Positions 9,107 through 30,087 of a DNA stretch of 39,297 nt are shown piece by piece. Within the stretch, counting starts at the first letter, position 1, and each line of letters opens with the position of its first letter. The DNA comes from Acidobacteriaceae bacterium (GTDB lineage Bacteria; Acidobacteriota; Terriglobia; Terriglobales; Acidobacteriaceae). The DNA lies in NCBI GenBank assembly GCA_025355385.1, contig JANXZS010000098.1:1-39297 (forward strand), in the 5' to 3' direction. The notes below the pieces were generated by a model. The model was not told the DNA's origin. It ran no database searches and saw only the letters and a program-made list of their open reading frames with translations. A program made the position numbers and the translations under genes.

Positions 9107-11562
<2,456 letters not shown>

Positions 11563-21709: not shown

Positions 21710-22311
21710 ATGCAACAGATGCGTTTGGCTGGCGCTGCACCCGGACTAACATCCTATGCTCGCTTTTATGCGCAGCGGAAGGCGCGGCCAGGGAACGCCC
21801 CGCTGGTTCATCCGGTTCCAGCCCGGGCCACGCCTGTCGTTGAATTTCAATTGAAGAACGTGTCCACATCGCGAATATGTTTTTGATACGCCGTTGCTCG
21901 ACCTTGCCTTCTGCAGATGGAATTACGACCGCCGCACTGTCTATTCTCCACCGCCGAGGTTCCGTTCCGGTCCCTGCTCTTGCGCAGCGAGCGTGCATGA
22001 GCACGCGGCAATTCGAGCGACGATTCACATGCGGAATAGGGCTCTCTCCCAAGCTCTATGTGCGAATCGCCAGATTCGAGTCAGCTCTCGAAAGCAAGGT
22101 GCTTTCAACCGCCGAGTCGTGGACGGGTGTGGCCAATCGACTCGGCTACTTCGATCAAATAGACATGATGAAAGACTTCAGGGAGTTTTCGGGAGAGATA
22201 CCTACGACCCTGCTCGCTCAGCTTGAAACGACCTTTGAAGCACATCTCAACGAAATCCGGTCCGGTCGAGTAGCTCCGACTCCACCCGCAGCTCCGCAAC
22301 TTATTCTGTAG
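21710..22311 (+). pseudogene. AraC-family regulator with internal deletion
   Basis: The first segment (ATG 21710 to about 21870) encodes the start of the N-terminal sensory domain found in this AraC group: RFYAQRKARPG and VHPVPARATPVVEF. Near 21870-21885 the frame changes and homology jumps to the hinge (STLPSADGITTAAL) and the two-helix-turn-helix DNA-binding domain: LAQRACMSTRQFERRF and VANRLGYFDQIDMMKDFREF. More than 100 residues of the sensory domain appear to be lost. The C-terminal piece alone (21877-22311, from an ATG) is an open frame of 144 codons and could still make a bare DNA-binding domain, but no ribosome binding site supports that. Confidence 0.7.
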
Positions 22312-23002: not shown

Positions 23003-24412
23003 CTAACGCCATGCCTTAGAGGCGGTACGGATCAGTGTGCCGCTGAAGCCGGTCATCGCATACTTTATTGCCATTTCTGTGGCTAACATCTGAATGCCTG
23101 ATGTGTACGTTGGGTAAGGGTGAATTGGGCTCGCCATGTCGCTTACCTTCATCTTTTTCTGAAGCGCATAGACGAACTCGATAATCGTCTCCCCTGCGCC
23201 TTCAGCGACGATCGTTGCGCCAAGAAGGAGGCCGTCATTCGTCGTGACGACCTTGATGAATCCGTCCAGATCGTTGTCGCATACGGCTCGGTCAATCCGG
23301 CCAAGCGGCCAAGTGCCCGTGTGCACGTCGTTGGAATGCTGATCGCGCGCTTCGGATTCCAGCAGTCCAACCTGTGCCACCTCAGGATCGCTGAACGTGA
23401 CGTGCGGAACAACGGTTGAAAATCCAGAATTACTGCCGGGGAGCAGTGCATTGCGTGCTGCCTGGAATCCCTGCCAGCCGGCGAGATGGGAGAACTGCTC
23501 CCCACCGAGCACGTCTCCGGCACCGTACACGTGGGACGCCGAGGTGCAAAGCTTGTCATTCACGGTGAGGCTAGAGCTGGTGTAGCGTATATGAGCCGCG
23601 GCGAGATTCAGGCCTTCCAGCTTGGACACCCGACCGGCTGCGACCAATAGCGCTTCGGCGTCTACGCTAATGTTTCGTGACCGGACTCGAATCAGCTCGG
23701 CCAGCCTCTCGACGCCTTGTGCGCGCGCCTGGACTACCCGGACGCCTTCTCGTTCGAGGATCCGTTGAATGGTTGTTGAGGCTTCCGGCTCGTCTTTGGG
23801 CAATAATCGATCAGCGAAGACGGTGACCTGAACGCCGAGACGTTGATAGGCCTGGGCCATCTCGACACCGATGGGTCCTCCCCCTATGATGATCAAGGAT
23901 TCCGGCAACTGGTCGCGGTCAAAGAAATCGAGATAGGTTGAGAATGGCACCTGATCTAGTCCCGGTATATCAGGAATGACAGGTGCAGCTCCAGTGGCGA
24001 CAAGGATCTTGCGCGCCCGGAGCCGCTGATCTCCACACTGCAAGGTGTGGGCGTCCAGAAACTGCACTGGTCCGAGCATCACATCCATTCCTTTTGCGCG
24101 GAGAGCGTCAGGTGTTGTGCTGGCGTAGATGTGATCGATGGCAGCGCGGAGGTACTCGCGAACCTGTGGCATGTCGACGCGGGGAGGCTGCGTGACGATC
24201 CCATACTGAGCCGATGAGCGAACGTTATGCGCGACTTTAGCCACTTTCAAAAGCGCTTTGCTGGGAACGCAGCCCGTCCAGGTGCAATCGCCGCCAATGC
24301 GGTCCTTTTCCAGCATCACTACTCGCGCGCCGAGTTTGACGGCAAAATCAGCGGCGATAAGCCCCGCAGCTCCTGCCCCGATTACAGCGAAGTCGTACTC
24401 TTGGTCGCTCAC
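23003..24412 (-). CDS. FAD-dependent pyridine nucleotide-disulfide oxidoreductase (MerA/Lpd-like)
   Basis: 469 residues in the flavin disulfide reductase order: FAD motif VIGAGAAGL (about 10-18), redox-active cysteines C43 and C48 in GGDCTWTGCVPSK, NAD(P)-binding IIIGGGPIGVEMA (about 175-187), second FAD motif VYGAGDVLGG, and the C-terminal interface motif HPYPTYTSG (His about 431) in place of the HPHPT of lipoamide dehydrogenase and mercuric reductase. MerA's extra N-terminal metal domain and C-terminal vicinal cysteines are absent, so mercury reduction is unlikely; substrate unknown. Its start overlaps the stop of the upstream MFS gene by four bases, so they form a coupled pair. Complete. 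Confidence 0.9.
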   Translation of the reverse strand: MSDQEYDFAVIGAGAAGLIAADFAVKLGARVVMLEKDRIGGDCTWTGCVPSKALLKVAKVAHNVRSSAQYGIVTQPPRVDMPQVREYLRAAIDHIYASTTPDALRAKGMDVMLGPVQFLDAHTLQCGDQRLRARKILVATGAAPVIPDIPGLDQVPFSTYLDFFDRDQLPESLIIIGGGPIGVEMAQAYQRLGVQVTVFADRLLPKDEPEASTTIQRILEREGVRVVQARAQGVERLAELIRVRSRNISVDAEALLVAAGRVSKLEGLNLAAAHIRYTSSSLTVNDKLCTSASHVYGAGDVLGGEQFSHLAGWQGFQAARNALLPGSNSGFSTVVPHVTFSDPEVAQVGLLESEARDQHSNDVHTGTWPLGRIDRAVCDNDLDGFIKVVTTNDGLLLGATIVAEGAGETIIEFVYALQKKMKVSDMASPIHPYPTYTSGIQMLATEMAIKYAMTGFSGTLIRTASKAWR

Positions 24413-25725
24413 GTTTTAAGCCTTTCTCTGCTCTTTTGTGGTACCCAATGCAGAAAGATAAGAGCCATCACTGCGACTCCGACTGTGCCAAAGAGCAAGC
24501 CATCGACCGAGAATCGCTGGCCCAATACCGCAGCCAGGATCGATCCGCAAATCGCGCCGACGCTCAAGAGAACGGAGTAGATTCCCATGGCTGCGCCTCG
24601 CCCCGACTGCGGCGGTAGCGAATTTGCGAGCCATGCAAGCGCGGCCGGGGTGAAGCCGCTCTCAACCATGATGCCAAATGTTGTTGCACCGGTGAGCGAC
24701 CAACGAAGCGGCTGCGAGAAGGAAGCTGAATGGTTTAGAAGATAGAAGCCCGCGCAGACCGGGAGCATGGCAATGAGCGTGATCGTCATGGCGCGCCGGA
24801 CGCTTATATGAGGAAGCACAAAGCTCCACCCCGTGACCCCGAGTCCGAAGATGATGGAGTAAGCGAGCAGCAACCAGCCCACACGGCTCGGCTCATGGGC
24901 GAACACGCCAGCAAAGGTCTGATGACTATGGACGTTCTGCGTCAGCAGGAATGGCAGTGTCGGCCCAAGCCAAAGCCCCACCACAGAGTTCACACAGAGC
25001 CACACCGGGGCGAGATGTCGTAACGTGGGAAGCCTCAGTGCATTCTTGAGCCCTGCGAACGGTGATACGATGTCGACCCTTCGCCTTCCGAACGCGCCGG
25101 TGAAGATAAGAGCGGAGCAGAGCAAATAGATCGCGCCGACGGCGAAAAATGACCCCGCACCCCAGAAGCGATAAAACTGCGAGGCCACGACACCCCCGAG
25201 GCCGAATCCCGCAAGCAGAGTCAGCTCAAAGAAGCTCATGACTTTGACTCGCAGCTTGGGATTTCCCTCGGTCTCAACTGTCAGATAGGCAAGGAGCGCA
25301 GGAACCACAGCGGCGGCACTGAGGCCTTCAAGCGTGCGACTTGCGAAGAAGATGGAGGTGGAATGGGTGAGCCCGAACAGGAGGGCGGCCACCGCTCCGA
25401 CTGCAGCACCAGACGTCATCAGCCAGCGCGGCGAAATCGCGTCCGAGGCCAGCCCCATTGGAATGGATGCCACCAGTTCCGCAGCGAACGAGACCGCGCT
25501 GAGGATTCCCACCAGCCGGGCATCCTGTGTGCCGCCTGTGTTGCGAAGATTTGCGAGGTAGAGACCAATCAGAATGCCATTCGCTCCGCTGGCGATTCGC
25601 AGTGCACCGTGAGCCAATAGAACTTGAGAGATTCGGCCTCTCGCTTTGTCATCGCGAAAAAACGCAACCTCTGCAGGTTCGATCGGCTCGTGGTTTAGCT
25701 GCAGAGGACCGGTGTTCGTTTCCAT
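24409..25725 (-). CDS. Major facilitator superfamily transporter
   Basis: About 438 residues, strongly hydrophobic, with around 12 predicted membrane helices in two halves and a charged central loop (GRRRVDIVSPF). The N-terminal half has the helix 2-3 region IPMGLASDAISPRWLM, a form of the MFS A-motif. I chose ATG 25725 (a TTG lies just upstream) because taggaa sits at ribosome-binding distance. Coupling to the downstream disulfide oxidoreductase suggests the pair handles one compound, for example efflux plus reduction of a thiol or metal-related molecule; this is inference. It starts only about 50 bases after the truncated MNIO gene, and may have replaced that gene's 3' part. Confidence 0.88.
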   Translation of the reverse strand: METNTGPLQLNHEPIEPAEVAFFRDDKARGRISQVLLAHGALRIASGANGILIGLYLANLRNTGGTQDARLVGILSAVSFAAELVASIPMGLASDAISPRWLMTSGAAVGAVAALLFGLTHSTSIFFASRTLEGLSAAAVVPALLAYLTVETEGNPKLRVKVMSFFELTLLAGFGLGGVVASQFYRFWGAGSFFAVGAIYLLCSALIFTGAFGRRRVDIVSPFAGLKNALRLPTLRHLAPVWLCVNSVVGLWLGPTLPFLLTQNVHSHQTFAGVFAHEPSRVGWLLLAYSIIFGLGVTGWSFVLPHISVRRAMTITLIAMLPVCAGFYLLNHSASFSQPLRWSLTGATTFGIMVESGFTPAALAWLANSLPPQSGRGAAMGIYSVLLSVGAICGSILAAVLGQRFSVDGLLFGTVGVAVMALIFLHWVPQKSRERLKT

Positions 25726-25778
25726 CAATTCCTAGGAAGTTGCTGGGCAGGATGCCCGTGTGGCAAGTCTACTCGCGA

Positions 25779-26039
25779 TCAATGTTCCCTGTTGAGCGGT
25801 TCGGCCGAACCGAAGTACATCGAGACGCCATGCTGCACCACGCGATATTGCTCAAGAATCTGGTCGAGGATATGAAGCGGACGGCCACCGTCAACCATGT
25901 AATTTTCCGAAATGATTTCGAACCAGTCGACCACTGGGTTTTGTTCGAGGATGTGCTGGTAGTGCGGAATTTTCAAACCAATTCCGACACCATAGTCGGT
26001 GAACCCGTTGAACCGATTTGCCGCCATATCTCCATCCAT
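25779..26039 (-). pseudogene. bufB: MNIO (DUF692, BufB-like) enzyme, N-terminal remnant
   Basis: The 86-residue frame is the start of the multinuclear non-heme iron oxidase family: DYGVGIGLKIPHYQHIL, VDWFEIISENYM (carboxylate ligands) and VVQHGVSMYFGSAEPL (histidine ligand). Full proteins have about 270-290 residues. A one-base loss seems to cause the TGA at 25779, since another frame continues as LIASRLATRA, and homology ends at about 25745, just before the MFS gene. The barrel and most ligands are gone, so it cannot be active. It follows the bufferin-like precursor gene, the usual order of buf operons. A start at 26027 with ggatggag upstream is also possible. Confidence 0.85.
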
Positions 26040-26123: not shown

Positions 26124-26387
26124 CTACATTTTTGGCATCGGCGGCTTAGAACCATCGGTTGCACAGCTGCCCTTGCCCTTGCACGAGTTCTTGCCGTCCG
26201 CTCCCTGGCTTTTGCAGGCGTTCTTGGGCTTCTCGGGATCGGTGGCGAAGGACGCCGTACCGGCGATAGTGTTCGAGACTGAGGCGTTGGAACTGGTGAG
26301 CGGCTGGGCATGGCTGATGGCGCTAGCTCCGCCAAGCATTCCAGCAACGGCTGCAGCAATACACATGGACTTCATCGAATTGGTCAC
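26124..26387 (-). CDS. bufA2: Bufferin-type (BufA2-like) cysteine-rich secreted peptide precursor
   Basis: 87 residues: a signal peptide ending near ISHA (about residue 27), a Ser/Thr/Ala-rich spacer, and a core with three cysteines (C58, C69, C75) in NACKSQGADGKNSCKGKGSC. This NxCKG pattern is typical of the secreted precursors encoded ahead of DUF692/MNIO genes. In studied bufferins the MNIO enzyme converts core cysteines to thiooxazole-type heterocycles and the exported peptide binds copper. Excellent ribosome binding site (aggaggtc) before ATG 26387. Because the adjacent enzyme gene is broken, the peptide may be unmodified unless a second MNIO exists elsewhere in the genome. Confidence 0.8.
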   Translation of the reverse strand: MTNSMKSMCIAAAVAGMLGGASAISHAQPLTSSNASVSNTIAGTASFATDPEKPKNACKSQGADGKNSCKGKGSCATDGSKPPMPKM

Positions 26388-26563
26388 GGTGACCTCCTGG
26401 TTTAGATTGGCTACCGGGCTCGATCAGCCTTGACCAGCCTCTGAAGGTTAAGATGGACAAGCGAAGGCCAGGTTACGGTAGATGAACGAAGTAATTGATA
26501 GGTATTCGGCTGTTTCCAGCCTCGATTTACGGATCGTATCCGATTGATGAAAGGAATGAACCC

Positions 26564-26791
26564 ATGGTTTCGTGCAAAAAGCTAGCCCAGAGCCTCTCCG
26601 CTTACATGGACGGCAACCTGGATCACGAGCTGTGCTGCGAGATCGAGAAGCATCTGTCCGTTTGCCGACGCTGCTCGGTGTTGCTCGACAGCGTGAGGAA
26701 AGTCCTTATCGTTTCTGGAGACGAACGCACCTTTGAGCTTCCCATGGGCAATGAGGATCGGCTTCACGCGTTCTTGAGTAGTCGCATGTGA
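26564..26791 (+). CDS. zf-HC2 (anti-sigma factor-like) small zinc-finger protein
   Basis: 75 residues with LSAYMDGNLDHELCCEIEKH and the zinc motif H-x3-C-x2-C (H30, C34, C37), the signature of the putative zinc-finger/anti-sigma domain (PF13490-like). Such proteins hold ECF sigma factors inactive and often respond to oxidants or zinc. There is no membrane segment and no ECF sigma gene beside it, so it is either a soluble anti-sigma with a distant partner or has another role. I chose ATG 26564 (gaaaggaatg upstream). It is the first gene of a tight plus-strand cluster, 51 bases before the DUF427-like gene, and is divergent from the bufferin gene. Confidence 0.8.
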   Translation: MVSCKKLAQSLSAYMDGNLDHELCCEIEKHLSVCRRCSVLLDSVRKVLIVSGDERTFELPMGNEDRLHAFLSSRM

Positions 26792-26842
26792 GATTGCTGA
26801 CTCCCCGTCTGTACACGCATGAAGGCACACAGGTGATAGCAG

Positions 26843-27205
26843 ATGCAGAAGTCCAAAGCACGCGTTCGGATTCGACACGCTCCTTCGGGAACCATCTTGG
26901 CAGAGGGCACCAAGGGTTGGGACATGATGCCGTTTGAAGGAAACTTTTACGTCCGCAAACGCTGCCTGAAGACTGACGCGTTTCGGCTGAACTTTATCCC
27001 AGGCATCTGTCCTTATCAGGGACTGTACTTCTGGATGGATCTCCGACTTAGAGGTCAAACCGCTGAAAAGAGCATTGCCTGGTTCTACTGGTTGCCCAAT
27101 CCGCTCTTCCCATTCATCTGGTTTAGAGTAGCTCTACCAGGGCAGCACCCAGATCTTGAAATACAGGAGTCCGCGTGGACACAGGACGAGAAGGGGCAAC
27201 AATGA
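26843..27205 (+). CDS. DUF427-like protein
   Basis: 120 residues beginning RVRIRHAPSGTILAEG, with FEGNFYVRKRCL and the pair CPYQGLYFWMDL, which resembles the CPYKG-type core of DUF427 proteins; the match is partial. No signal peptide; many aromatic residues (WFYWLPNPLFPFIWF) suggest a compact beta-fold or a hydrophobic ligand surface. Its stop overlaps the start of the radical SAM gene by four bases (ATGA), so the two are translationally coupled and probably work together. Function unknown. Confidence 0.7.
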   Translation: MQKSKARVRIRHAPSGTILAEGTKGWDMMPFEGNFYVRKRCLKTDAFRLNFIPGICPYQGLYFWMDLRLRGQTAEKSIAWFYWLPNPLFPFIWFRVALPGQHPDLEIQESAWTQDEKGQQ

Positions 27206-28758
27206 GTGATTCTCCCGCAGCCACTGCGAGCGGACCCACGGCACTGAAGAAGGATGCTAACTACGTCTTCTACGAGCTGACGCGGAGCATCTGCCCTGAT
27301 TGCCGCAAGGTTATCGACGCAAAGATTCTGCTGCGCGACAACAAGGTCTACATGGCAAAGCGTTGTTCTGACTGTGGCCCATTTGAGGCGCTTGTCTACG
27401 GGGACGCCGAGATGTATACGACCTTCGGCAAGTACAACAAGCCAGGCACGATTCCGCTTGCATTCGGGACTGAGGTCAAGGATGGATGCCCGCATGACTG
27501 CGGACTGTGCCCGGACCATCAACAGCACGCTTGCCTCGGCATCATTGAAGTGAATAGCAACTGCAACATGAACTGTCCTCTGTGCTTCGCGGCAGCAAGC
27601 CCTGGCTTCAGCCTGACGATGGAAGAAGTCGAGTCCATGCTCGATGACCTGGTTCGAACCGAGGGCAATCCTGAGGTGGTCCAGTTCTCCGGCGGAGAGC
27701 CGACCATACATCCGCAGATTATGGACTTCGTCCGCGCAGCCAAGGCTCGCGGGATTCCCTTCGTGATGATTAACACCAATGGGAAGCGCATCGCTCAGGA
27801 TGATCGTTTCCTCGCTGAACTGAATGAAGTCCGCCCCTCGCTCTACTTTCAGTTCGACGGCTTCGATTCGGAGACCTACCGAATCATTCGCGGGGAGGCT
27901 GACATTCTTGACGAGAAGCTGCGTGCATTGGATCGTCTCGCTTCGATCGGATTGAACGTAACTCTTGTTCCAGCCATTGAGCGTGGGGTCAATGAGCATG
28001 AGATTGGCAGGATCATCGAGTTCGCAATCAAGCACCCAGCCGTTCGCGGCATTAACTTTCAGCCGGCATTCCACGCTGGACGACACATGCATCACGACCC
28101 AATGCAACGCATCACGATCCCAGACATCCTCAAGATGATCGAAGAGCAGACGGAGAAGAAGTTCATGACGAGCGACTTCATTCCCGTTCCTTGCTGCTTT
28201 CCCACCTGCAACTCGGTCACCTATGCCTTCATCGATGGAGATAAAGTCACGCCGCTCTCGCGCGTCGTCAACGTCTACGACTATTTGGACTACATCACCA
28301 ACCGCGTCATGCCGGACTTCAGCCTGGAGATAAAAAAAGCGCTGGAAGGTTTGTGGTCGTCTTCCTCGGTACCTGGATCGCAGAAGTCGGCGGAACAGTT
28401 CTCCGTCTCCTGCCAGGCCTGTGGTCTGCCGGAGAGCCTCACTGTAGGCGACATTGCGCAGAACATGCTCATGATCATGTTGCAGGACTTCATGGACCCC
28501 TGGACGTTCAATCAGAAGAATCTGATGAAGTGCTGCAAAGAGTTCCTTCTACCCGGCGGAAAGCAAGTCCCGTTCTGCTCCTATAACACGATTGGCTATC
28601 GCGAGCAGGCTCGCAAACAACTGGAAGCGATGGAGCCGGAGCGTCGTCGAGCACGGCGCGACAACACTCCTTATGTAGTCAAGCCCGTTGAGTTCAACAT
28701 GAAAGCTGAGGCTGTTTCCCAGCTCACCTCGATTGACGTGGTGACCGCCAATGATTGA
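27202..28758 (+). CDS. MJ0619/Tes-family radical SAM enzyme
   Basis: 518 residues from ATG 27202 (aaggggc upstream). An N-terminal zinc-ribbon-like part has C31/C34 and C55/C58 (SICPDC, KRCSDCG). Next comes the cluster GCPHDCGLCPDHQQHAC (C96, C100, C103, C111), then the SAM-cluster motif C121-x3-C125-x2-C128 in CNMNCPLCF, then FSGGEPT and a C-terminal part with further cysteines (PCCFPTC, SCQACG, KCCKEF, PFCSYN), suggesting extra Fe-S clusters. This layout matches the MJ0619 group, which includes the archaeal tetraether lipid synthase that joins lipid tails, and bacterial relatives proposed in membrane-spanning lipid synthesis. Here it is coupled to a methyltransferase (8-base overlap), so the substrate may differ. 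Confidence 0.9.
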   Translation: MSDSPAATASGPTALKKDANYVFYELTRSICPDCRKVIDAKILLRDNKVYMAKRCSDCGPFEALVYGDAEMYTTFGKYNKPGTIPLAFGTEVKDGCPHDCGLCPDHQQHACLGIIEVNSNCNMNCPLCFAAASPGFSLTMEEVESMLDDLVRTEGNPEVVQFSGGEPTIHPQIMDFVRAAKARGIPFVMINTNGKRIAQDDRFLAELNEVRPSLYFQFDGFDSETYRIIRGEADILDEKLRALDRLASIGLNVTLVPAIERGVNEHEIGRIIEFAIKHPAVRGINFQPAFHAGRHMHHDPMQRITIPDILKMIEEQTEKKFMTSDFIPVPCCFPTCNSVTYAFIDGDKVTPLSRVVNVYDYLDYITNRVMPDFSLEIKKALEGLWSSSSVPGSQKSAEQFSVSCQACGLPESLTVGDIAQNMLMIMLQDFMDPWTFNQKNLMKCCKEFLLPGGKQVPFCSYNTIGYREQARKQLEAMEPERRRARRDNTPYVVKPVEFNMKAEAVSQLTSIDVVTAND

Positions 28759-29557
28759 AGCGAGCCAGACCTCGGCACCCTCCGTGAAACAGTGTTGCGC
28801 GAACGTATATGGCAGCGCCGCTGCGAAGTATCTATTGGGCGATAGCTTTCATCCCGGCGGCCTGCGTCTCACGGAGGAATTGGCAGGCCTGCTAGCGCTT
28901 ACCCCCGATTCGCTTGTCCTCGACGTCGCTTCCGGAAAAGGGTCGAGTGCATTCTTTCTTGCAGAGAGGCTTGGATGTCGCGTGGTTGGAGTCGATCTAA
29001 GTGAGGAGAATGTCCAACAGGCGAATGCTGAAGCACTCGCGAAAAGGCTGAGCGAAAAAGTTGAATTTCAATTGGGCGATGCTGAGTCTCTCCCGTTTGA
29101 ATCGGGCGCCTTCGACGCCATCCTCTGCGAATGCGCGTTCTGCACGTTTCCGAGTAAGGCCGTGGCTGCAGCGGAGTTCTATCGTGTCCTTAAGACCGGT
29201 GGACGAGTCGGCATTAGCGATATCACCAAAGATGACAGCCCCCTGCCGGGACTCGACGGATTACTCGCCTGGATCGCCTGCATCGGCGACGCTCAGTCTC
29301 TCAATCAATACGCAGACTGGCTAACGAAGGCAAAACTCAAAGTGGCAATCAGTCAGCAGCGCGACCATTACCTTCAGGAGATGGTCCAGGCCATCCGCGG
29401 TAAACTTCTGGTCGCTGACATATTGATCGGGCTCAAAAAGCTCGAGCTGCCCGGTCTGGACCTGCAACAAGCGAAGGCCTTCTCAACGGCTGCGCAGGGT
29501 GCCATCGCAACTGGGCATCTCGGTTACGGGCTAATCGTAGCTTCGAAAGTCGGATAA
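28751..29557 (+). CDS. Class I SAM-dependent methyltransferase paired with the radical SAM enzyme
   Basis: 268 residues: SVKQCCANVYGS near the N-terminus (C15, C16), then LGDSFHPGG, the SAM-binding motif LVLDVASGKGSS (about 56-66), VVGVDLS, and CECAFCTFPSKA followed by RVLKTGGRVGISDI. The fold is UbiE/ArsM-like. The paired cysteines near the N-terminus and in the active-site region recall thiol- or metalloid-handling methyltransferases such as ArsM, although the exact ArsM cysteine set is not present. It starts inside the end of the radical SAM gene (8-base overlap) and closes the operon. Substrate unknown; arsenic, selenium or a lipid are all possible. Confidence 0.88.
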   Translation: MIEASQTSAPSVKQCCANVYGSAAAKYLLGDSFHPGGLRLTEELAGLLALTPDSLVLDVASGKGSSAFFLAERLGCRVVGVDLSEENVQQANAEALAKRLSEKVEFQLGDAESLPFESGAFDAILCECAFCTFPSKAVAAAEFYRVLKTGGRVGISDITKDDSPLPGLDGLLAWIACIGDAQSLNQYADWLTKAKLKVAISQQRDHYLQEMVQAIRGKLLVADILIGLKKLELPGLDLQQAKAFSTAAQGAIATGHLGYGLIVASKVG

Positions 29558-29829: not shown

Positions 29830-30087
29830 ATGGCGATGCCGAAAGAACATGATCCCATATGTGGAATGATGGTCGATCCCTCAAAAGCAGCGGAACGCGC
29901 TGAATACAAGGGCACCACTTTCTACTTTTGCAGCAAGGGCTGAGCCGCAAGGTTCTGCACCTCGCCGGAGGCTTATCTCAAGACGGCTCCCGCCAAATCA
30001 GCCTCGCCAGCGCCTATGAAAATGAGAGCAGGTGGGGAGTACACGTGTCCCATACCAACTGGTACAAAAAGGACTCCGCATTCCAGG
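29830..30087 (+). pseudogene. YHS-domain metal P-type ATPase, N-terminal remnant
   Basis: From ATG 29830 the frame reads [14 protein letters not shown] and [12 protein letters not shown], the YHS metal-binding domain found at the start of many copper/silver P-type ATPases. A TGA at 29941 replaces the cysteine of the usual FCSxGC motif. In the same frame follow RFCTSPEAYL and YTCP, the beginning of the next Cys/Met-rich element. The sequence then slips out of frame and homology ends near 30087. All transport domains are absent. Inactive. Confidence 0.75.

Follow-up and report, generated by a model that had tools for sequence, protein, structure and literature searches.

The tetraether lipid synthase Tes (GDGT-MAS, MJ0619) is a radical S-adenosylmethionine (SAM) enzyme whose pocket holds alkyl chains and in which a substrate carbon bonds to cluster sulfur (PMC9433317). 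TrsS, a radical SAM (seleno)protein, and the methyltransferase DVU_1556 are named in NCBIfam; TrsS is mentioned in a selenoprotein review (PMC13188914), but a literature search gave no described function for either of them. In the ArsM, arsinothricin (ArsL/ArsM/ArsQ) and arsenosugar (ArsM/ArsS) systems a methyltransferase with an arsenic-binding cysteine pair stands by a radical SAM gene and a transporter gene. The pair C174/C224 of CmArsM suffices for methylarsenite, while C72 is needed for inorganic arsenite only; methylation of methylarsenite persists in the C72A mutant and is lost in C174A and C224A (PMC3877260). The conserved cysteines of BgArsL number only three (PMC8552651). A locus that shares features with each of these systems was investigated in a stretch of 39,297 nucleotides (the window; contig JANXZS010000098.1, positions 1 to 39,297) from the 4.63-Mb genome of a soil Acidobacteriaceae bacterium (GCA_025355385.1). 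It encodes a Tes-like radical SAM protein (RS; 518 aa, 27202..28758, + strand), a SAM-dependent methyltransferase (MT; 268 aa, 28751..29557, +) and a MerA-like FAD/NAD(P) disulfide oxidoreductase (469 aa, 23003..24412, −). These three almost certainly constitute one co-inherited module, usually accompanied by a transporter of the major facilitator superfamily (MFS). An earlier note on this DNA had been unable to match the RS and MT genes, together with that of a small anti-sigma-like zinc protein, to a described pathway, and none that fits the set of RS, MT and MerA-like protein was found in the literature.

Distribution of the core genes

The earlier note had described four packed genes, for a zf-HC2 protein, a DUF427-like protein, RS and MT. 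All four reading frames were present on the + strand with the spacing given there, i.e. a 51-base gap between zf-HC2 and DUF427-like, a 4-base overlap between DUF427-like and RS and an 8-base overlap between RS and MT; good ribosome-binding sites were found at every start except that of MT. The MerA-like and MFS genes, which are parts of the module, lie outside the region covered by that note. The MFS gene (24409..25728, −; PF07690, 98 bits) overlaps the MerA-like gene and likely encodes an exporter.

In the Acidobacteriota, the phylum searched in depth, close homologs of RS (about 70% identity or more), of MT (E <1e-70) and of the MerA-like protein (E <1e-150) were confined to the identical 6 of 396 genomes (G000, G326, G210, G259, G217 and G190). 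The chance of a random match to one set of six genomes is about 2e-13 per pair; allowing for kinship, as three of the six belong to one genus (g154) and about four lineages are left, it is 1.3e-8 per pair at genus level. The surroundings of RS were compared in 15 acidobacterial loci of its clade (the window, L009-L017, L019 and L067-L070). MT adjoined RS in 14 of them, the exception being L068 of genome G210, where MT was found on another contig beside a piece of RS that aligned over about 95 residues. On this second contig (L119, contig 171 of G210, 9221-11050) a DUF6789 gene and the remnant of an MFS gene accompany the C-terminal portion of RS and a complete MT, whereas contig 25 has a complete RS together with MerA-like and MFS genes; the cluster of G210 seems to have been broken and partly duplicated. 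A MerA-like gene shared the locus with RS in 13/15 cases, placed divergently or on the same strand upstream or downstream, and was also present in the distant CPR1 locus L020. An MFS gene shared the locus in 9/15 cases. In Chloracidobacterium and in a metagenome-assembled genome (MAG) of Blastocatellia, the MerA-like, RS and MT genes lie on one strand.

The tie between a Tes-type radical SAM enzyme and a cysteine-rich methyltransferase, put forward in the earlier note, is thus upheld by this co-occurrence and by the fold of RS described below. The neighbourhood survey confirmed the pair but not the set of four, since zf-HC2, whole or partial, was found in 6/15 loci and the DUF427-like gene in 2/15 (the window and L017); both are outside the conserved core. 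That zf-HC2 and the DUF427-like protein are structural or catalytic partners in a four-gene functional unit would agree with the tight packing in the window and with L017, where all genes from sigma to MT, these two included, lie on one strand. Given the counts above, and given that zf-HC2 goes with an extracytoplasmic function (ECF) sigma gene where both are intact, such a unit is very improbable, and it was rejected on the locus survey.

Among 100 relatives searched within the window's own family, MT gave a match in two, namely its own genome and a distant partial match (G055). The plasmid search yielded one close RS-MT pair, in Mycolicibacterium, with an RS 53.6% identical and MT adjacent. 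Patchy presence together with this plasmid pair suggests that the module has spread by horizontal transfer. Viral contigs gave only distant methyltransferase matches, and no matches were obtained in the E. coli genomes searched.

The radical SAM protein and its relation to Tes

Family scans recognised a radical SAM domain and an N-terminal zinc ribbon in RS (PF04055, 77.7 bits; PF23545, 61.2 bits). Its closest solved structure in a phmmer search was Tes (7tol, E 1.6e-84). The score against the NCBIfam model of Tes (NF045702) was 342.6 bits at a cut-off of 450, and that against TrsS (NF045646) was 331 bits at a cut-off of 490, a model for which the positive control, L084, gave 571.5 bits. The AlphaFold2 model of RS (pLDDT 83.0, pTM 0.84) aligned with 7tom (GDGT-MAS) over 423 residues with Z 52.8 and rmsd 2.7, whereas the next-best protein after Tes in the structure search was MoaA, with Z 20.5.

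Phylogeny set RS apart from Tes. A maximum-likelihood tree was calculated from 39 sequences, in which long branches leave the deeper order unsure. The window protein fell in a clade of 16 (support 100/99), with Edaphobacter and Granulicella MAGs as its nearest relatives and the Mycolicibacterium plasmid protein among the members. MJ0619 grouped with three acidobacterial homologs (L081, L082 and L085; 100/99), apart from the RS clade, as was a third clade of 11 members (100/99), in which a gene of the LGT family (prolipoprotein diacylglyceryl transferase) was located nearby in 8/11. RS has the fold of Tes but belongs to a clade distinct from it.

The full MJ0619/Tes cysteine architecture ascribed to RS in the earlier note was found with differences of detail. 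The set of cysteines is present: C31/C34/C55 form the rubredoxin-like site, C96/C100/C103 belong to the N-cluster and C121/C125/C128 to the radical SAM cluster, and C336, C444, C445 and C459 align with Tes cysteines, the last three being retained in the vicinity of the C-terminal cluster. The fourth ligand of the rubredoxin-like site, however, is C58, where Tes has His, and the labile ligand Met439 of Tes is not kept in the RS clade, which mostly has Gln or Thr there. A counterpart of Tes C438 was not found in the alignment of RS. The RS clade has motifs of its own, PCCFPTC and SCQACG, whose cysteines C332 and C407 occur in 16/16 members but elsewhere in 3/23 and 0/23. A segment of about 20 residues that follows PVP in Tes and lies beside the substrate pocket is missing from the clade, and the stretch matching the Tes helices before HMLMI is short, was modelled with low confidence and contains SCQACG.

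Such features bear on lipid modification, one of the roles considered in the earlier note, in which RS would couple or functionalise alkyl chains like Tes and MT would methylate them, yielding a membrane-spanning or otherwise modified lipid. The Tes fold and the retained cluster cysteines are what this role would demand, bacterial Tes homologs have been proposed for the synthesis of branched glycerol dialkyl glycerol tetraethers (PMC8941075), and the fold neighbours of MT include enzymes of the cyclopropane-fatty-acid type. RS nevertheless stands outside both the MJ0619/acidobacterial clade and the LGT-paired clade, its region around the pocket differs as described, and, unlike Tes, it is paired with MT, a MerA-like reductase and an MFS exporter, with no lipid genes. 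A lipid role is therefore not favoured and appears unlikely.

Alternatively, RS and MT might act like the TrsS and DVU_1556 genes of Desulfovibrionaceae in the maturation of a cofactor or enzyme, i.e. of a molybdenum aldehyde oxidoreductase or another metalloenzyme. There the same two families occur side by side, MT scored 127.1 bits against the DVU_1556 family (NF045667), and methyltransferases of that group also carry equivalents of the MT cysteines C128 and C177. The gene company of the RS and MT homologs in L021 points the same way; judged from sequence, these neighbours would be flavoprotein-like, C-GCAxxG-C-C-like, CoA-ligase-like, XdhC-like and NTP-transferase-like genes. Against this, MT like RS stayed below the cut-off (155 bits for DVU_1556), and a lone FdhA-like gene in L067 is the single case of such a metalloenzyme beside genes of the RS clade; this role is likewise unlikely. 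The window proteins also differ from that system in that the CC motif is found only in window-type MT, in that they have no selenocysteine (SelB gave no match over the cut-off in the window genome) and in their neighbours.

Several observations were made on other Tes homologs. The LGT-paired clade was met in Acidobacteriota and Persicobacter, and a long-branch homolog likewise lies near an LGT-family gene on mycobacterial plasmids (L071-L075, L077, L080, L063 and L064, M. branderi plasmid; also L126, M. avium plasmid). These loci may offer a lead towards membrane-spanning lipids in bacteria. In L078 (8760-11802) and L083 (7073-9867), Tes-like radical SAM genes stood as tandem pairs among SDR-like, aminotransferase-like or ketosynthase-like genes, possibly as biosynthetic clusters. 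Single in-frame TGA codons in some RS homologs might be read as selenocysteine; in G217, the case examined, the TGA is an ordinary stop.

The methyltransferase, redox neighbours and candidate chemistry

MT was recognised as a class I methyltransferase (PF08241, Methyltransf_11, 80.8 bits) and carries the cysteines CC15-16, C126/C128/C131 and C177. C128 and C177 were invariant in 19/19 homologs, both close and distant, and the CC15-16 motif was present in 17/19. In hhalign and in a profile search, C128 and C177 aligned with the arsenic-binding cysteines that ArsM has in SNCVIN and GC(V/I)AGA, both of which were present in 7/7 ArsM proteins of the profile search. ArsM was also the best-scoring group outside the family against the MT profile, with 109-124 bits as compared with 82 or less for others. 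In a control with the Methyltransf_11 proteins of the same genome, only the ordinary ArsM had both cysteines; the other methyltransferases showed no cysteine aligned at either position, the second position being unaligned in most. Equivalents of CmArsM C174/C224 were thus present in MT by two alignment methods, whereas hhalign aligned no MT cysteine with that of ArsM SLGCGNP, the equivalent of CmArsM C72, and CC15-16 sits further upstream. Because the pair is present and the C72 position is absent, MT looks suited to a mono-substituted substrate.

The MerA-like protein shares the family fold of the MerA/lipoamide-dehydrogenase superfamily and its redox pair, C43/C48, which was conserved in 14/14 proteins. 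It differs from the mercuric reductase MerA in scoring below the cut-off (TIGR02053, 356.3 bits at a cut-off of 454.45) and in having no C-terminal cysteine pair. Redox genes were also seen around RS in other loci. AhpD and AhpC/TSA-type proteins are encoded near RS both in L017 and on the Mycolicibacterium plasmid, and the two AhpD proteins share 55% identity; the plasmid also carries, around RS-MT, genes for a deiodinase-like protein, a mycoredoxin-like glutaredoxin, an MFS protein, homologs of Rv1678 to Rv1681, CcdA and a thioredoxin-fold protein. Haloarchaeal RS-MT pairs, which are on plasmids, lie near redoxin, DUF547, lipoamide-dehydrogenase-like, DsrE, DUF3179 and CMD genes, and in one haloarchaeal locus an ArsC-like phosphatase gene lies directly in front of RS, at a distance of 87 bases. 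L067 has MFS, MerA-like, FdhA-like molybdoprotein, PiT-type transporter, RS and MT genes on one strand. The shared theme of these neighbours is thiol redox chemistry, and none of the genes names a substrate.

We put the probability at roughly 0.45 that the module makes or modifies a small soft-element compound, i.e. a thiol or a metalloid, for example arsenic. The earlier note had counted such a compound among the possible substrates, and this suggestion gains weight from the ArsM-like pair of cysteines and from the redox neighbours seen in several phyla; the Tes cluster cysteines kept in RS also speak for it. Within this reading, arsenic or another metalloid is our tentative first choice and a thiol a somewhat weaker second. 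It is conceivable, though rather unlikely, that the module yields an undescribed organometalloid (e.g. an organoarsenical) as a natural or detoxification product, with RS forming the carbon-metalloid bond and MT methylating. In the proposed mechanism, a 5′-deoxyadenosyl radical of RS would generate a substrate radical, which would be caught at the C-terminal [4Fe-4S] cluster, as in Tes, or by a heteroatom, so that a bond of the C-S or C-As type would form. With C128 and C177 holding the heteroatom, MT would methylate it in the way that ArsM treats methylarsenite. The MerA-like flavoprotein would return thiols or the substrate to the reduced state, and export of the product would fall to the MFS protein. 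An ArsM/AhpD fusion family exists in NCBIfam (NF041537).

A number of results weigh against this reading. MT reached only 92.3 bits against ArsM (NF008823) at a cut-off of 263 and lacks the C72 position, and RS belongs to neither the ArsL nor the ArsS type. The nearest folds to MT in the structure search were methyltransferases of the RebM/AtmM, phosphoethanolamine and cyclopropane-synthase types; ArsM was not among the top 50, which excludes nothing but weakens the comparison with ArsM. The cysteines that MT has in common with ArsM may have arisen by convergence or have a different purpose. Next to the module in the window, no genes for resistance to arsenic, mercury or selenium were recognised, and a separate, ordinary ArsM is encoded in the window genome. 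The haloarchaeal ArsC-like match is weak (62.6 bits, cut-off 174.3), and the molybdopterin protein and PiT-type transporter of L067 are not arsenic-specific. A literature search for ArsM with the conserved cysteines together with a radical SAM protein gave no functional study.

On a plasmid of M. vanbaalenii (L062, 4423-8297), homologs of M. tuberculosis Rv1678, Rv1679 (FadE16), Rv1680 and the radical SAM protein Rv1681 were observed beside RS-MT; a literature search gave no functional study of the Rv1678-Rv1681 proteins.

Flanking genes and implications

The zf-HC2 protein (75 aa, 26564..26791, +; PF13490, 32.2 bits, above the cut-off of 22.2) resembles anti-sigma factors. In L010, L015 and L017 an intact ECF sigma gene extends into the start of zf-HC2. 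The window has a relic of that gene, consisting of the final 27 codons and the stop (26502..26585, +), which keeps the same overlap (VFGCFQPRFTDRIRLMKGMNPWFRAKS as compared with VFQPRFSDHIQLLKGMNPWSRAKS in L010); the best other sigma factor of the window genome is 37% identical. Since only this relic remains, the zf-HC2 protein appears to be an orphan anti-sigma factor. The locus would once have been controlled by an ECF sigma factor paired with the zf-HC2 anti-sigma factor; in the window, the gene for the latter is all that is left of the pair. The accessory DUF427-like protein (120 aa, 26843..27205, +) matched PF04248 below the threshold (18.6 bits, cut-off 22.1). The fullest set was found in L017, where sigma, zf-HC2, DUF6789, AhpD-type CMD, AhpC/TSA, DUF427-like, RS and MT genes all lie on the + strand.

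At the position of a bufferin precursor, 176 bases from zf-HC2, a small signal-peptide protein is encoded (26124..26387, −), which has no Pfam match and is probably outside the module. L017 contains a homolog with 63% identity beside a BufB-like gene, and L010 a remnant of 28 aa. The neighbouring BufB-type MNIO enzyme of the window is truncated to 86 aa (25779..26039, −) and matched NF050167 over model positions 1-69 of 262. As both the sigma gene and bufB are truncated, the region between the two divergent gene groups has probably suffered deletions. In the earlier note the neighbouring bufferin peptide had made a peptide-related role seem worth testing. Modification of the bufferin-like peptide, giving a ribosomally synthesised and post-translationally modified peptide, would agree with its nearness to zf-HC2 and with the L017 homolog. 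The window and L017 were, however, the only RS-clade loci with bufferin-like genes close to RS, apart from the L010 remnant; no other precursor gene was seen among the RS-clade loci; and RS and MT are intact in the window while bufB is not. A peptide substrate is thus hardly credible, and the bufferin idea was rejected on the locus survey.

Further along the window, a remnant of a YHS domain (29830-29943) reads to FYFCSKG, followed by TGA and AARFCTSPEAYL, and looks like the decayed N-terminus of a metal-related protein; selenocysteine at this TGA was rejected, as SelB was not matched above the cut-off in the genome. An AraC-type DNA-binding domain of 144 aa stands alone at 21877-22311 and is possibly a truncated regulator.

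Tes homologs of bacteria are frequently regarded as candidate sources of the membrane-spanning lipids on which palaeoclimate work draws. The RS clade presents an acidobacterial Tes-like gene in a setting that does not look like lipid synthesis, so the presence of a Tes-like gene alone is no proof of lipid production. If RS and MT do act on a soft-element compound, this would extend the chemistry known for the Tes fold and provide a two-enzyme pathway that can be tested directly. Should the product be an organometalloid, it would represent a third route beside those to arsinothricin and the arsenosugars, one found in Acidobacteriota and, partially, in archaea and on a plasmid of mycobacteria.

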